A stretch of DNA of 35,653 nucleotides from Kineococcus vitellinus. Its GTDB lineage: Bacteria; Actinomycetota; Actinomycetes; Actinomycetales; Kineococcaceae. Location of the stretch: positions 1-35,653 of the forward strand of contig NZ_JAAALL010000008.1 of assembly GCF_009906315.1 (NCBI RefSeq), given 5' to 3'. Below are positions 3,816 to 33,297 of the stretch, one piece after another. The notes beneath the pieces are model-generated. The model made no database searches. It was not told where the DNA came from and saw nothing but the letters and a program-made list of their open reading frames with translations. Both the position numbers and the translations under genes were made by a program. Within the stretch, counting starts at the first letter, position 1; every line of letters begins with the position of its first letter.

Positions 3816-3870
3816 GTGATCTTCCTCCAGGCGCTGGGCGCCTGGCTCCAGGTGCACCGTCGAAGATCAC
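3816..3870. repeat. Expanded copy of the dispersed GTGATCTTC palindrome
   Basis: The outer arms are GTGATCTTC and GAAGATCAC. Read on the minus strand, the first 20 bases match the 14190 and 26661 copies at 19 of 20 positions (GTGATCTTCnACGGTGCACC). The centre then carries extra sequence with its own perfect 8-bp hairpin (CCAGGCGC-tgg-GCGCCTGG). It lies 20 nt beyond the stop of the TauE-like gene and upstream of the winged-helix gene, so it could terminate the former. Confidence 0.75.
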
Positions 3871-3890: not shown

Positions 3891-4646
3891 TCAGCGCAGC
3901 AGGTTGAGGCCGGAGACGACCGACAGGCCCAGCACCCAGCCCTCGAACTTCTTCTGGTCGATCCGCTTGGCCAGCCACCACCCGAGGAGCGCGCCCACGA
4001 CGACGGCCGGCGCGAGCTTGAGGTCCAGCCACAGCGACTCGGTGCTGATGAGGCCCAGGCCGAGGCTGAAGGGCACCTTGAAGACGTTGACGATGAAGAA
4101 GAACCAGGCGCCGGTGCCCAGGAACGACATGACGCCCAGGCCCATGGTGAACAGGTAGATCGACATGGGGGCCCCGCCGGCGTTGGCGACCATGGTGGTG
4201 AACCCGGCGAGGAACCCGAAACCCACCGCCGTCAGCCGCCGCGCGGCGGGGGTCATCGGCACGACGTCCTCGCGCCGGCGCAGCCGGTGCTGGCGCCACA
4301 GGTGGATCGCCACGAGCAGCACCAGCAGGGCGCCGATGGAGCGGCGCATCACCGTGTCGTCGACGACCCGCACGAAGCCCGCGCCGGCGACCACCCCCAC
4401 GGCGACGCTGGGGAAGAGCCGCACCAGCAGCCCCCACTCGGCGTGCCGGCGGTAGATCGAGATGGCGAACACGTCGCCCAGGATCAGCAGCGGCAGGATG
4501 ATCCCGGTCGACTCCTTGGCCGGCAGCACGAAGGCGAAGATCGCGACCGCGATCGTCCCCGCGCCGCCGATGGAGGTCTTGGAGAAGCCGATGACGAGGG
4601 CCGCCAGGAGCAGGGGGAGGAAGTCGGTCGTGGACACGTCCAGCAC
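3891..4646 (-). CDS. TauE/SafE (TSUP) family sulfite/organosulfur exporter
   Basis: A 251-residue integral membrane protein with about eight hydrophobic segments in two similar halves, the standard TSUP layout (PF01925). Each half has the typical glycine-rich opening: GFSKTSIGGAGTIAV near residue 20 and GFLAGFTTMVANAGGAPMSIYL near residue 155. Family members move sulfite, sulfoacetate, taurine-derived or other small anions across the cytoplasmic membrane; the substrate here is unknown and no sulfur-metabolism gene is adjacent. The start is GTG 4646, supported by a TAGTCT -10 box 6 nt before it, which suggests a leaderless transcript. It is divergent from dinB. Confidence 0.88.
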   Translation of the reverse strand: MLDVSTTDFLPLLLAALVIGFSKTSIGGAGTIAVAIFAFVLPAKESTGIILPLLILGDVFAISIYRRHAEWGLLVRLFPSVAVGVVAGAGFVRVVDDTVMRRSIGALLVLLVAIHLWRQHRLRRREDVVPMTPAARRLTAVGFGFLAGFTTMVANAGGAPMSIYLFTMGLGVMSFLGTGAWFFFIVNVFKVPFSLGLGLISTESLWLDLKLAPAVVVGALLGWWLAKRIDQKKFEGWVLGLSVVSGLNLLR

Positions 4647-12454: not shown

Positions 12455-12481
12455 CCCGCGCGCGGGGGCGGACGGGTCAGC
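12450..12481. terminator. Bidirectional terminator spanning both stop codons
   Basis: Perfect 9-bp arms GCTGACCCG and CGGGTCAGC around a 14-nt loop. Each arm contains the stop codon of one of the two convergent genes (Sir2 on plus, MCP on minus). Confidence 0.65.
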
Positions 12482-13436
12482 TGCGCATGCCGGCGAGGAA
12501 CCCGCTGATCTGCGTGCGCAGCTCCTCGGAGAGGCGGGAGAGGCCGCTGGCGTCGCCGGATCCGCCCCAGCCGTCGGAGCCGTCGACCGCGGTGCGCACG
12601 CCGTCGACGAGGCCGTTCATCTCCACGACGGTGCCGCTGATGCCGGTGATGGCCCGCACGGCCTCCTGCGCCTGCGCCCGGATGCCGGCCACGCGCGCGC
12701 TGACCTGCTCGGTGGCGCGGCCGGTCTGGTCGGCGAGCTCCTTGACCTCGGAGGCCACGACCGCGAACCCCTTGCCGGCCTCGCCCGCGCGCGCCGCCTC
12801 GATGGTGGCGTTGAGGGCGAGCAGCCGGGTCTGGTCGGCGATGGCGTCGATGACGGAGACGACCTGCTGGATCTCCTCCGAGGCCCGGGTGAGGGCCTCC
12901 ATGGTCAGCGAGGCCTGCTCGGCCTCGCTGCTGGCGGCGCCCGCGGCGGCGGCCAGGCCCTGCGCGGACGCGCTCAGCTCCGTGGAGGCCGTGGCCACCT
13001 GCTCGGACACCCCGAGCACGCCGGCCTCGAACTCGTCGGCGAGCGCGTGGCGGCCGGCGGTGGCCTCCTCGACGACGCGGGCGCCGGCCTGCATGGAGAC
13101 CCGGCTGGCGTTGATGGCGGTGGCCGAGCCGCGGTAGGCGCCGCCGAGCCCGCCCAGCAGCAGCCGGCGGTGGAAGCGGCCGTCGGCGGCGGCGGTGAGC
13201 ACCTCGCCGGCCTCGCGGACGAAGGCGTCGGACACGTCCAGCGCCCGGTTCACGCCGTCGGCGAGGCGGACCAGCTCGGGGACGGACTCGAAGCCGGGGA
13301 CGCCCGCGACGCGGGCCTCCAGGTCGCCGGTGGCGGCGGCCTCGCACACCTCGGTGACCTGGCGGACCAGCTCGCGGTGCAGGGCGGCCTCGTCGGTGCG
13401 GGCCGCGCTCGCGGCACCCCTGCGCCAGAAACCCAT
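12477..13436 (-). CDS. Soluble methyl-accepting chemotaxis protein
   Basis: A 319-residue chemoreceptor with no membrane segment. The N-terminal third ([30 protein letters not shown] and the following GRFHRRLL segment) looks like HAMP-type helical bundles; the rest is the signalling coiled coil with the hairpin tip [41 protein letters not shown] (split here only for description), the part that contacts CheA and CheW. It lacks a sensory domain of its own. ATG 13436 follows the stop codon of the PAS gene by 2 nt, with GGAGG 7 nt upstream, so the two are made together; I infer that the PAS protein supplies the sensing, as in a split Aer receptor. Confidence 0.9.
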
Positions 13437-13438
13437 GA

Positions 13439-14005
13439 TCACGCCTCCTCGTCCGGCACGATGGACCACACGAACTGCTCGTACGTCGTGCCGCGCTCGG
13501 CCAGCAGCCGGTGCAGCAGCGCGGTGGAGGCCTCCACGGCCGCCTTGCCGGAGGAGTGCCGGCGCTCCTCGGCGAGCAGGTCCGCGTACAGCGCGCTCGC
13601 CGCCCGCACGCCCTCCTGGCCGGGCTTGCGCCGGTTGGAGTGGTAGCCGACGATCCGCCCGCCGCGGTCCTTGCTGGGCGTCACGTGCGCCAGGACCCAG
13701 TAGTTCGCGCCGTCCGCGGCGAGGTTGTTCACGTACGCGAACAGCTCCCGGCCGGAGGAGACGGTGTCCCACAGCAGCTTGAAGACGGCCTTGGGCATGT
13801 CCGGGTGCCGGATGATGTTGTGCGGGCGCCCGATCACCTCGTGGCGCTCGAAGGCGCCCACGCGCAGGAACACGTCGTTGGCGTAGGTGATGATCCCGCG
13901 GGGGTCGGTCTTGGAGACGATCAGCTCGTCGCGGGAGAACGTGCGTTCCTGGCCGGTGGGCCGCACGGCGGTGCGCGCGGGCCGTTCGGGTGCTGCGGTG
14001 CTCAC
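13439..14005 (-). CDS. Aer-type PAS domain protein
   Basis: A 188-residue cytoplasmic protein. Residues about 22-135 form a PAS domain of the Aer type: [19 protein letters not shown], then [38 protein letters not shown], and [13 protein letters not shown]. The [10 protein letters not shown] and WDT segments are the hallmark of Aer and related FAD-binding PAS domains that sense oxygen or redox state. A helical C-terminus of about 50 residues could contact the soluble MCP encoded 2 nt downstream. The start is GTG 14005, with GGAGGAG about 7 nt upstream. It is divergent from the rRNA methyltransferase gene, across a spacer rich in palindromes. Confidence 0.87.
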
Positions 14006-14063
14006 GGGGTGGCTCCTCCACTGTTCGACGGAGCGTCGAGCGGGCGGCGAGGTGCCGCCCCGG

Positions 14064-14087
14064 GTCGTCGCGCTGGTCGTCGCGCTG
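14064..14087. repeat. 12-bp tandem duplication
   Basis: GTCGTCGCGCTG occurs twice in direct succession just before the 34-bp palindrome in the divergent spacer. Confidence 0.6.
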
Positions 14088-14089
14088 GG

Positions 14090-14123
14090 TAGAGGTGCTC
14101 ACCCGGACGGGTGAGCACCTCTA
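14090..14123. repeat. 34-bp palindrome in divergent spacer
   Basis: Perfect 16-bp arms, TAGAGGTGCTCACCCG and its reverse complement, separated only by GA. No gene ends here: both neighbours start outward, at 14005 and 14264. It could be an operator, a cruciform, or the terminator of an unannotated small RNA. Confidence 0.75.
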
Positions 14124-14177
14124 GAAGCTGCATCGGCGTCCCGGCGCAGGACTTGAGCCCCGGCCCGCGCGCGGCCG

Positions 14178-14233
14178 CCCTCCCCGTCCGTGATCTTCCA
14201 CGGTGCACCGTGGAAGATCACGGACGGGGAGGG
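14178..14233. repeat. 56-bp perfect palindrome, copy of the dispersed GTGATCTTC repeat
   Basis: A perfect dyad of two 28-bp arms with no loop, centred between 14205 and 14206. The core 14190-14221 (half-site GTGATCTTCCACGGTG plus its complement) is identical to the copy at 26661. It ends 14 nt before the -10 box of the rRNA methyltransferase gene and so covers its -35 region. Confidence 0.85.
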
Positions 14234-14247
14234 GGCGCGGGGCGGCC

Positions 14248-14253
14248 TAGACT
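14248..14253 (+). promoter_or_regulatory. -10 box TAGACT for rRNA methyltransferase gene
   Basis: TAGACT ends 10 nt before ATG 14264, giving a leader of only a few nucleotides. Confidence 0.45.
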
Positions 14254-14263
14254 GGAGACCGCC

Positions 14264-15400
14264 ATGCAGTGCGACTACTACGACCGCCACGCCTGCCGCT
14301 CGTGCACCCTCATCGAGGTCCCCTACGCCGACCAGGTCAGCGGCAAGGAGCAGCGCTGCCGCGACCTGCTGAGCGGGCGGCTGGGCGAGCAGCCGCAGCT
14401 GCGGTGGCTGCCCAGCGTGCGCAGCCCCGAGGCCGGTTACCGCAACAAGGCGAAGATGGTCGTCGGCGGCACCGTGCGCCGGCCGACGCTCGGCATCCTC
14501 GACGCCGCCGGGCGCGGCGTGGACCTGCGCCGCTGCGGGGTGTGCACGCCGGGCATCCGGGCCGCGCTGCCCGAGCTGGCCCGCTTCGTCACCACCGCCG
14601 GTCTCACGCCCTACGACGTCCCCGCCCGGCGCGGTGAGCTCAAGAACCTCCTGGTCACCGAGTCGCCCACGGGCGAGCTCATGGTGCGCTTCGTGCTGCG
14701 CTCGGACGCCCTGCTGCCCGCGGTGCGCCGCCACCTGCCGCACCTGCTGCGCGCGCTGCCGCAGCTGGCCGTCGTCAGCGCGAACCTGCTGCCCGAGCAC
14801 AAGGCCGTCGTCGAGGGCGACACCGAGATCGCCCTCACCGAGCGCACGACGCTGCGGATGCCGCTGGGCGGCGTCGACCTGGACCTGCGCCCGCAGAGCT
14901 TCTTCCAGACGAACTCGACCGTCGCCGCCGCGCTGTACGCGCAGGTCGCGCAGTGGGTCGAGGAGGTCGCGCCGGCGAGCGTGTGGGACCTGTACTGCGG
15001 TGTCGGCGGCTTCGCGCTGCACTGCGCCGCACCGGGCCGGGAGGTCACAGGCATCGAGGTCAGCGAGGAGGCCGTCGAGAGCGCCCGGGCCGGGGCGCTG
15101 GCCGCCGGGCTCACCGGCGTGCGCTTCGAGGCGGGCGACGCCACCCGCTTCGCCCTGGGGGCGGGCGCCGTCCCCGACCTCGTGGTGGTGAACCCGCCGC
15201 GGCGGGGGATCGGCGGCGAGCTCAGCGGCTGGCTGGAGCGCTCCGGCGTGCGCCACGTCGTGTACTCCAGCTGCAACCCGGTGACGCTGGCCGCGGACCT
15301 CGCCGCGATGCCGTCGCTGCGGCCGGTGCGCGCCCGGGTGCTCGACATGTTCCCGCAGACCCCGCACGTGGAGGTCGTCGCGCTGCTCGAGCGGGCGTAG
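14264..15400 (+). CDS. rlmC: 23S rRNA (uracil-C5)-methyltransferase RlmC-like
   Basis: A 378-residue SAM-dependent methyltransferase of the TrmA/RlmC/RlmD family. The N-terminus has C3-x7-C11-x2-C14, and a further Cys in DLRRCGVC completes a likely [4Fe-4S] site. Other motifs are YRNKAKMVVGG, RPQSFFQTNS, the SAM loop DLYCGVGGFALH, VVNPPRRGIG, the catalytic Cys in YSSCNPVTLA and the terminal HVEVVALLER containing the general-base Glu. The absence of an N-terminal TRAM domain and the opening MQCDYYDRHACRSC point to RlmC (U747 of E. coli numbering), although actinobacterial relatives can have shifted specificity. The promoter overlaps the large palindrome upstream. Confidence 0.9.
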   Translation: MQCDYYDRHACRSCTLIEVPYADQVSGKEQRCRDLLSGRLGEQPQLRWLPSVRSPEAGYRNKAKMVVGGTVRRPTLGILDAAGRGVDLRRCGVCTPGIRAALPELARFVTTAGLTPYDVPARRGELKNLLVTESPTGELMVRFVLRSDALLPAVRRHLPHLLRALPQLAVVSANLLPEHKAVVEGDTEIALTERTTLRMPLGGVDLDLRPQSFFQTNSTVAAALYAQVAQWVEEVAPASVWDLYCGVGGFALHCAAPGREVTGIEVSEEAVESARAGALAAGLTGVRFEAGDATRFALGAGAVPDLVVVNPPRRGIGGELSGWLERSGVRHVVYSSCNPVTLAADLAAMPSLRPVRARVLDMFPQTPHVEVVALLERA

Positions 15401-26566: not shown

Positions 26567-26658
26567 GAACAGCCTCCCCAGCCACGGATCCCGTCGGCGA
26601 CACCCTGCCCGATCGACGGATCGAGCGGAAGAGCACCCCTGCCGCCGCGCCCGCCCAG

Positions 26659-26694
26659 CGGTGATCTTCCACGGTGCACCGTGGAAGATCACCG
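26659..26694. repeat. Dispersed GTGATCTTC palindrome, 36-bp perfect copy
   Basis: A perfect dyad whose 32-bp core (26661-26692) is base-for-base the same as the core at 14190-14221. It lies 34 nt past the stop of the GGDEF-EAL gene and 92 nt upstream of the aldehyde dehydrogenase start, so here it could be a terminator. Confidence 0.85.
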
Positions 26695-26728
26695 ACAGGA
26701 GGGGCGGCGGGGACCACGCGCGGGCGGC

Positions 26729-28987
26729 TCAGACGAGGGCGCCCTCGCCCTCCGGCTCGTCCCGGGCCGGCTGCGCGGCGCGCCGGCGCACGAAGCCCGG
26801 GACGTCCCCGGCGTCCATCGCGGCGCCGAACAGGTGGCCCTGGGCGCGGGAGATGCCCAGCGCCTGCAGCGGCGCGAGCTGCGCGGCCTCCTCCACCCCC
26901 TCGGCCAGGATCTGCATGTCCAGCGCGCGGCACAGCGCCGCGATGCCCTCCAGCAGCGAGGTGTCGCCCCCGGTGACCAGGGTCGTCAGCGACCGGTCCA
27001 GCTTCACCGTCGAGATGGGGAAGCGGCGCATGTAGGACAGCGAGGTGTAGCCGATGCCGAAGTCGTCGAGGTCGACGTGGAAGCCGGCCGCCACGACCTC
27101 GCGCAGCGACGCCGCGATGGAGGGGTCGTCGGGCAGCTCCTCGTGCTCGGTGACCTCCAGGTGCACCCGGTCGGGGGCGATGCCGTGCCGGGCGGCCAGC
27201 GAGGAGATCCAGCGGGCCGCGCCCCGCCGGCGCAGGCTGCCGACGCCGAGGTTGAGCGCCAGGTGCAGCGGCGGCAGGCCCAGGGCGTCCCAGCGCGCGA
27301 GGTCGGCCATCGCGCGGGCCGCGACGTGCTCGTCCAGGCGCGCGCCGAGGCCGGCGGCCTCGGCGTGCTGGAGGAACTCGTCGGGCACCAGCACGCCCGC
27401 GCGGGGGTGGTGCCAGCGCACGAGCGCCTCCACGCCCACGACGACGCCCTGGGCGGGGCCGGGGGCGAGGTCGACGATCGGCTGGTGGACGACGACGAGC
27501 TCGCCCACCTCGAGCGGGTCGCCGTCCTGCAGCAGCAGCCGGCGCAGCTCCTGCTGCACGACGAGCGCACCGAGGACGCGCTCGCGCAGCTGCGGGCGGT
27601 ACACCTGGGCGCGGCCCTTGCCGGCCTGCTTGGCCGCGTACATGGCGATGTCGGCGTCCACGAGCGCCTCGGCGAGGGTCGCGCCCGCGCGCAGCGGGGC
27701 GATGCCGATGCTGGCGCTGACCTGGTGCGGCAGGCCGTCGAAGGCGAAGGGCGCGTCGAGGGCGGTCAGCAGCACGTCGCCGGGGCCCTCCTCGTCCTCG
27801 GGGGGCGTCCAGGCGACGACGATGAACTCGTCGCCGCCGGTGCGGGAGACCACGCCGCGCGGGCCGACCGCCCGCCGCAGCCGCCCGGCGACCTCCACGA
27901 GCAGCGCGTCGCCCACGGCGTGCCCGCGGGTGTCGTTGATCTGCTTGAAGTCGTCGAGGTCGACCAGGCACAGGTGCACGTCCTGCCCGGGCACCCGCCG
28001 CCGCAGCTGCTCCGCCGCCCGGGGCAGCCCGCGGCGGTTGACGAGGTCGGTGAGGGGGTCGCGGTCCGCGGTGCGCTCGGCGCGGTTGACCGCCAGCGCC
28101 GCGAGCGTGACGCCCGCGCAGGCCAGCACGTAGCCGCTGGGGGCCACGACCTCGACGGCCACGTCGGGCAGGACGCCGAAGGCGCCCAGCACCCACAGCA
28201 CGGGCACGGCGCAGAAGACGGGGACCACGGCCAGCAGCCGGTGGCCGTCGCGGCGCAGGCCGCCGCCCGCGGCGGGCGTGCCGAGGTGGCGCATGCTCGG
28301 GTGGGCGGCCGCGGCGGCCAGCAGCACGGAGACGGCGCAGCCGAGGGTCCGCAGCGGCGAGGCCTGCAGCACGAGCAGCTCCCCGCGGGCGGTGACGAGC
28401 GCGGCGACGGCCAGCAGCGTCCCGGCGGCCAGCAGCACCAGCGCCGTCGCGGGGGCCATCCCGGTGCGCGTGGACAGCAGCCGCAGCAGCACGACGGCCA
28501 GGACGACGTCGGCCGCGGTGCCGGTGAGGACGGCGGCGTCCGCGCCGACGCCGGTGGCGCGCAGCATGCCGAGGACCTGCACGACGACGAGCGCGCCGCC
28601 GCAGGTGGTGAGGAAGAGGTCCGGCCAGGTGGTGCGCGCCGCGCCGGCGGAGCGGGCCAGGGTGCGCACGAGGAAGGGCACGACGGCGAGGGCGACGAGC
28701 TGGACGACGAGGACCGTCCAGCGCGTGGCGTCGACGCCGCCGCGGGAGGCGGTCGTGACGACCGCGCCGGCGAGCCCGGTGGTGACCAGGACGAGCACGA
28801 GCACCCACACCAGCGGGACGACGGGCCGGTGCGCGCGCACGCCGAGGCAGGCCACGAGCAGGGCGCCCGCGTGCACGAGCAGGGCGGCGACGTCACCGGC
28901 CGCGGTGCCGCCGCCGGCGGGCAGCAGCGGCACGAGGCCGGTGAGGACCGCGAGCACGCCGAGCACGCCGAGCACGCGCTTCGACAT
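26729..28987 (-). CDS. Membrane-anchored GGDEF-EAL cyclic di-GMP enzyme
   Basis: A 752-residue protein with about nine N-terminal membrane helices (residues 5-290), a GGDEF domain (about 310-465) and an EAL domain (about 490-740). The cyclase signature is intact (RTGGDEFIVV, about residue 384), and the inhibitory RxxD site is absent (RGVV at that place). The phosphodiesterase residues are also intact: EALVRW (Glu520), the Asn in LALNLG, EVTEHE, DLDDFGIGYTSL, TVKLDRS and EGVEEAAQ, so both activities are possible. It could link an unknown membrane signal to cyclic di-GMP levels and hence motility, in keeping with the chemotaxis genes nearby. ATG 28987 has GAGGAG just upstream. It is a single-gene unit downstream of the CDF gene. 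Confidence 0.92.
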   Translation of the reverse strand: MSKRVLGVLGVLAVLTGLVPLLPAGGGTAAGDVAALLVHAGALLVACLGVRAHRPVVPLVWVLVLVLVTTGLAGAVVTTASRGGVDATRWTVLVVQLVALAVVPFLVRTLARSAGAARTTWPDLFLTTCGGALVVVQVLGMLRATGVGADAAVLTGTAADVVLAVVLLRLLSTRTGMAPATALVLLAAGTLLAVAALVTARGELLVLQASPLRTLGCAVSVLLAAAAAHPSMRHLGTPAAGGGLRRDGHRLLAVVPVFCAVPVLWVLGAFGVLPDVAVEVVAPSGYVLACAGVTLAALAVNRAERTADRDPLTDLVNRRGLPRAAEQLRRRVPGQDVHLCLVDLDDFKQINDTRGHAVGDALLVEVAGRLRRAVGPRGVVSRTGGDEFIVVAWTPPEDEEGPGDVLLTALDAPFAFDGLPHQVSASIGIAPLRAGATLAEALVDADIAMYAAKQAGKGRAQVYRPQLRERVLGALVVQQELRRLLLQDGDPLEVGELVVVHQPIVDLAPGPAQGVVVGVEALVRWHHPRAGVLVPDEFLQHAEAAGLGARLDEHVAARAMADLARWDALGLPPLHLALNLGVGSLRRRGAARWISSLAARHGIAPDRVHLEVTEHEELPDDPSIAASLREVVAAGFHVDLDDFGIGYTSLSYMRRFPISTVKLDRSLTTLVTGGDTSLLEGIAALCRALDMQILAEGVEEAAQLAPLQALGISRAQGHLFGAAMDAGDVPGFVRRRAAQPARDEPEGEGALV

Positions 28988-33265: not shown

Positions 33266-33297
33266 GGGTGATCCTCCGCGGTGCGGTCGCGAGGCAG

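Follow-up and report, generated by a model that had tools for sequence, protein, structure and literature searches.

The window, by which we mean the whole stretch of DNA analysed (35,653 nt), is contig C687 of the 4.86-Mb draft genome of Kineococcus vitellinus, which comprises 698 contigs. Three sites in this window carry a palindromic element. The 32-bp palindrome GTGATCTTCCACGGTGCACCGTGGAAGATCAC occurs exactly at positions 14190-14221 and 26661-26692, and its half-site of 16 bases, GTGATCTTCCACGGTG, is found on both strands at these two positions and, with one mismatch, at 3855-3870. Allowing up to three mismatches, we detected six half-sites in the window, compared with a mean of 0.23 and a maximum of 2 in 100 dinucleotide shuffles. 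The sixth match, at 33268, has two mismatches and lies within a predicted reading frame.

The copy at 14190 is located in a divergent spacer. On one side follows a gene for a PAS-domain protein (13439..13966, minus strand), which adjoins an MCP-signalling gene (12477-13442), and on the other side a gene of the RNA (uracil-5-)methyltransferase family (PF05958; 14264..15400, plus strand), whose ATG at 14264 is 42 bp downstream. Here, locus-specific complementary arms of 12 bp (CCCTCCCCGTCC/GGACGGGGAGGG) extend the core to a perfect palindrome of 56 bp (14178..14233), and the region 14170-14250 folds at -70.9 kcal/mol (z -9.4). Another perfect hairpin, TAGAGGTGCTCACCCGGACGGGTGAGCACCTCTA, without relation to the first, is found in this spacer at 14090-14123. 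A preliminary description of this DNA had placed the 14190 copy between divergent genes and over a promoter. The divergent arrangement was confirmed. A consensus scan of 13950-14300 yielded no sigma-70 promoter, nor did it yield a U-tract terminator.

The second copy (26642..26710) contains the core at 26661-26692 inside a longer hairpin that has small internal loops (-56.8 kcal/mol, z -8.8), with 36 bp between the core and the stop codon of a minus-strand GGDEF/EAL gene (26729..28987). Both symmetric copies, on both strands, reached minimum free energy z-scores of -8 to -11 relative to shuffles. The third site is an asymmetric variant of 55 bp (3816..3870); a minus-strand TauE/SafE-family gene (3891..4646) has its stop codon 20 bp away. 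The variant retains the outer arms GTGATCTTC/GAAGATCAC, matches 19 of 20 bases in its right half and contains two inner palindromes, CCAGGCGCTGGGCGCCTGG and GGTGCACC. Rfam covariance models gave no relevant match with E-values up to 5. The preliminary description had recognized the two identical 32-mers, the mismatch-free 56 bp, the expanded relative with an internal insertion that itself folds, the intergenic position of all three sites and the closeness of two of them to a stop codon, and in all these points our analysis agrees with it.

Copies and variants of the core in the genome

The idea of a dispersed family was to be given up if the genome held no further copies. We found the pattern GTGATCTT-N8..38-AAGATCAC at 48 places in the draft and its reversed control at none. 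With the variants at 3816 and on C48, and with copies truncated at the ends of contigs, the number rises to ~51. Nine of these lie no more than 60 bp from where a contig ends, compared with ~0.9 expected, so the draft probably under-counts the copies. The 32-mer, in which base 11 is A or G, accounts for the large majority of copies, TTGC replaces TTCC in three of them (contigs C300, C123 and C320), and a few are 41-55 bp long. Across the 48 copies, listed with their flanks, the conserved region has a sharp edge: GTGATC...GATCAC is uniform apart from these variants, and the next base is C or G in a ratio of 65/35. The core was not found in other species beyond two isolated matches for its degenerate 20-base form in GTDB r220 (in Streptomyces and Blastococcus), both apparently in coding sequence, and the exact core was absent among the matches listed for ten congeners. 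The family is thus real, abundant and lineage-specific, and its core is effectively private to the species.

We compared the flanks of the copies with each other. On average, the left flank pairs with its own right flank at 9.8 of 13 positions, compared with 5.5 +/- 0.3 for shuffled partners, and the mean perfect pairing run is 7.6 instead of 1.2, with the longest runs reaching 20 bp. Pairing is strongest next to the core and drops to background after the first mismatch (0.41 vs 0.39). Since the flanks differ between loci yet pair within a locus, the core caps long locus-specific hairpins: the 32-mer is their upper part, and the lower stems are private to each locus. The preliminary description had spoken of identical cores with unrelated flanks, which holds between loci but not within one, where the flanks are complementary. 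We also considered an old insertion into the loops of pre-existing hairpins. This was rejected because pairing is best at the core, the reverse of what leftover loops predict. Several copies, such as the one at 9230 of L055, have outer arms of the type CTGTGGAC...GTCCACAG; the TTGTCCACA within these arms resembles an actinobacterial DnaA box.

The length between the conserved outer ends ranges from 32 to 55 bp in this genome, and the long variants share an exact half-mirror relationship with the palindromes of 32 and 41 bp. If the right half of the C164 copy is mirrored about GGTGCACC, exactly the 32-mer results; mirroring C48 yields exactly its G-allele 32-mer, and the left half of either C48 or the 3816 copy, when mirrored, yields exactly the 41-bp palindrome of C221. 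Template switching during replication can create and repair hairpin stems (PMC8794818), and both perfect arms and half-mirror derivatives are expected from template-switch hairpins and quasipalindrome correction (PMC8794818, PMC7202029). As the half-mirror variants are the expected product of this process, template switching probably took place, while recombination between the forms, in the opposite direction, may be another source of such variants. The asymmetric C48 and C164 copies possess perfect locus-specific arms of 14 and 10 bp despite their asymmetric interiors, which indicates that arm pairing does not need symmetrisation of the core. Arm pairing is hence kept or made separately from core symmetry. 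Template switching acts at one locus and alone moves no core to 48 loci; it explains the symmetry of the element, not its dispersal.

Position at gene ends and a probable role in transcription termination

Following a proposal in the preliminary description, we tabulated the strand context of the copies, using gene boundaries that were predicted with a codon-usage gene caller and not curated. The 38 copies that could be classified comprise 19 in convergent, 15 in tandem and 4 in divergent spacers, the 14190 copy being one of the latter, and ten further copies lie at contig edges. Length-weighted expectations are 6.5% convergent, 52% tandem and 41% divergent, which corresponds to an excess in convergent spacers (p ~3e-13) and a deficit in divergent ones (p = 5e-5). 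For all 15 tandem copies, the upstream stop codon is nearer (median 19 bp away) than the start codon of the following gene (median 94 bp). Terminators would be distributed in this way, and the preliminary view that the palindromes are not independent terminators is not supported.

No T-run was found beside any of the 48 listed copies and no U-tract follows the stem. Together with the GC-rich hairpin within ~50 bp of a stop codon, this corresponds to the I-shaped terminators of mycobacteria and high-GC actinobacteria, which in mycobacteria are the usual type, lack a U-tract and lie <50 bp from stop codons (PMC12288462). Whether actinobacterial RNA polymerase terminates at U-less hairpins is disputed, and both views are cited in the same review.

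Judged from placement and the statistics of arm pairing, we think it fairly likely that the 32-mer is the conserved tip of U-less, bidirectional I-shaped terminators that was amplified in this lineage and shaped by template switching. Each copy would form, in RNA, a hairpin of 14 to >25 bp with a locus-specific lower stem. Because the DNA is palindromic, the element would be active on both strands, so that a single copy between convergent genes could halt RNA polymerase coming from either side. The tip would have multiplied after the species split from its relatives, and the arms would have been kept or made perfectly complementary, probably helped by replication template switching in which one arm is copied from the other. 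Besides the missing U-tract, other observations speak against this interpretation. Four copies, including that at 14190, lie between divergent genes, and a terminator does not need an identical 32-bp tip: of 70 strong hairpins found between genes in the sampled contigs, 37 do without the core and have private sequences. The identical tip throughout the genome is also what sets the element apart from ordinary I-shaped terminators; we know of no report of such terminators with a common 32-bp tip.

If this interpretation is right, a repeat family multiplies without the usual REP transposase while living inside transcription terminators, and its tip evolves in concert across the genome while the lower stems stay private. 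Two questions could then be studied in this natural system: how short palindromes spread without RAYT, and whether long perfect terminator stems are built by template switching. The family would also be useful for annotating the ends of genes in high-GC actinobacteria, for which predictors based on U-tracts fail, and would account for some of the assembly breaks.

Related palindromes in other genomes

Congeneric genomes carry families of their own with the same GTGATC ends, often in nested arrays, for instance GTGATCTTGCTGGG..CCCAGCAAGATCAC in G001 and GTGATCAAGCACT.. in G008; G009 and G010 are also rich in such palindromes. Copy numbers for a loose pattern differ strongly between relatives, with 41 in G008 compared with 9 in its sister G004, and 60 in G009 compared with 9 in G002 (~85% nucleotide identity). 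G004, G002 and G003 have only 8-9 loose matches, and congener counts of 6-9 look like chance, the low counts in G002 and G003 being less secure because these are fragmented drafts. Other repeated hairpin families were noticed at gene ends as well: in G001, a family CGACTTCTGGGGAGCT... (L103 15230, L142 4731), and in G001 and G007 hairpins of the form CGAAGGGCCC...GGGCCCTTCG with variable tips (L103 18777, L106 19377, L144 17220).

The preliminary description had proposed a comparison of orthologous sites, and this could be carried out in part: the spacers do not align, and the congeners contain no comparable element at the orthologues of the 14190 and 26661 loci. In G001, G005 and G009 the spacers orthologous to that of the 26661 copy are 51-90 bp long, compared with 168 bp here. 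From the lack of a comparable hairpin we conclude that new sites were gained. Among the 3816 orthologues a long hairpin, of another sequence, occurs only in G001, where the arrangement of genes is different. At one orthologous convergent spacer, the hairpins of the genome studied here (G000) and of G001, G004, G008 and G009 are strong, with z from -6.7 to -8.4, and their sequences are unrelated; that of G007 is moderate (z -2.6), and four congeners have none that is significant. The strong hairpins of the congeners favour the terminator interpretation, and the four spacers lacking one count against it.

We extended the search to the whole class with the pattern GTGATCWWSC-N6..36-GSWWGATCAC. 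It matched 18 of 394 Actinomycetes genomes, seven of them with at least three copies, and the controls gave zero. The seven are the genome studied here (47 copies), G134 (42), G033 (12), G015 (11), G209 (7), G012 (6) and G174 (3). In each genome rich in this pattern the interiors are genome-specific, and the outer ends GTGATCWWGC recur patchily; G096, from the genus of G134, has no copy. The copies in G134, G015 and G033 tend to lie at gene ends, with a C-rich left and a G-rich right flank. Locus-specific pairing of the flanks is established for the K. vitellinus genome only, because it was not clearly above the shuffled level in the other genomes, including the sampled copies of G001 and G008. 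In G134, an actinomycete of another taxonomic family, the more than 40 copies are GTGATCATGCAC palindromes, some of them in arrays (L171-L178). In G209 (L179-L183), GTGATCTTGC palindromes are part of a longer conserved, MITE-like repeat, in which the flanking 25 bp are identical in either orientation. In the open-access literature we found no description of the GTGATCWWGC motif, only unrelated primer-like matches, which is weak evidence of novelty.

Routes by which the core may have spread

The preliminary description had suggested a mobile or gene-converting element of the REP/RAYT type. Amplification across the genome in one lineage indicates that the element is mobile or gene-converting in some sense; the RAYT part did not hold. 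REPs are palindromes of 20-40 bp that lie dispersed between genes of convergent or unidirectional orientation, for the most part behind coding regions, and some of their families are species-specific; Actinobacteria are not among the REP-bearing phyla listed (PMC3733652). With 32 bp and ~48-51 intergenic copies, the element has the size, dispersal and gene-end context of REPs, both of the GTAG type with RAYT and of the CGTC type without a dedicated transposase (PMC3733652). It differs from them by its symmetric core, which has no polarity and no unpaired GTAG or CGTC tag beyond the 32-mer, by the continuation of the stem into locus-specific complementary flanks and by the lack of a Y1 transposase. 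PF01797 (Y1_Tnp), the domain of RAYT-like transposases, was found in none of the 11 congeneric genomes, where positive controls matched, nor in G134, G012, G015, G033 and G209, five of the six other repeat-bearing genomes, and we rejected this enzyme as the mover. The motif GTCGTGCGTC adjoins the right stem foot in five of 48 copies (L054, L061, L075, L083 and L088), three of which belong to co-duplicated chemotaxis-receptor 3' ends. It was discarded as a general terminator motif because it has 31 matches in the genome compared with 37 for the reversed control. In place and context the element resembles a REP or an I-shaped terminator, but it is neither a GTAG- nor a CGTC-REP.

A miniature mobile palindrome is possible, though we would not bet on it: a non-autonomous element with the ends GTGATCWWGC...GCWWGATCAC that is moved by a non-Y1 enzyme and inserts at gene ends or hairpin tips, with the terminator role as a tolerated placement or a later co-option. 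The edges of the 32-mer, sharp on both sides with unrelated flanks, are consistent with such an element. So are the lineage-restricted amplification in G008 and G009 and the fact that other families patchily show these ends around interiors specific to each genome, as in G134 but not in G096 of its genus. Besides the missing Y1_Tnp, it is opposed by the lack of a recurrent transposase beside the copies and by the fact that insertion alone yields no inverted locus-specific flanks that pair best at the core. No target-site duplication was seen and no empty site recovered, the nearest congeners being ~75-86% identical with unalignable spacers and G096 and G134 likewise too diverged. Like MITEs and REPINs, the element is a short non-coding repeat with conserved ends and lineage-specific amplification. 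MITEs measure 70-300 bp, compared with 32 bp here, and no autonomous partner with matching ends was found.

Conversion of hairpin tips appears somewhat doubtful. Here, extruded palindromes would be cleaved at the tip, or synthesis would fold back on itself, and subsequent repair with another copy as template would homogenise the tips without any transposase. Identical tips on private outer arms and the half-mirror variants fit this process, as do allele changes in both arms (GC/GC at C60, C84 and C296, TTGC/GCAA at C300), which occur beside mixed A-C / G-T copies. Moreover, three chemotaxis-receptor paralogues have common 3' ends with an adjoining element, from which it follows that conversion or duplication does occur here. 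Conservation, however, ends abruptly at base 16 of each half without outward decay, and the gain of sites deduced from the 26661 orthologues goes beyond the conversion of existing tips. Because both routes address the spread of the tip rather than its function, their probabilities overlap with that of the terminator interpretation. With more reservation, we suggest that Actinomycetes might harbour a so far undescribed class of self-propagating, transposase-less palindromes, with GTGATCWWGC ends and genome-specific interiors, that spread via hairpin tips at gene ends, by fold-back replication or repair of tip breaks, and give each lineage its own terminators.

We regard it as unlikely that a dimeric protein binds the core as double-stranded DNA, with the core acting as a global operator or as a site of chromosome organisation. 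Perfect dyad symmetry, sharp edges, near-identical copies and the position of one copy 42 bp before a start codon would suit such a site. The consistent stop-codon side of the tandem copies and the depletion from divergent, promoter-bearing spacers would be left unexplained by it, a DNA-binding site would not need arm complementarity beyond the core, and the spacing of the outer ends varies. A DNA uptake sequence arranged in inverted pairs that double as terminators, as in Neisseria, is highly improbable: species-specific motif variants at terminators do resemble uptake-sequence dialects (PMC3630211), but known uptake sequences occur in hundreds to thousands of copies, most of them single (PMC2346458), whereas the 97 half-sites found here at up to two mismatches nearly all belong to the 48 palindromes, the unpaired ones being two-mismatch matches or copies cut by contig ends.

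Apart from the three chemotaxis-receptor ends and two pairs of proteins with weak similarity, we found no common family among the genes next to the copies. In each of L054, L061 and L075 (first ~350 bp), a near-identical 3' end of an MCP-like chemotaxis-receptor gene precedes the element, which in all three has CGGCCG as its inner flank and carries GTCGTGCGTC. This suggests that gene conversion among these paralogues carried the terminator along. We saw no solitary pair of half-sites bounding a gene of IS size. At L077 129-1075, two copies flank a single restriction-endonuclease-like gene of the DUF559/MTES_1575 family, which is absent at the other copies.
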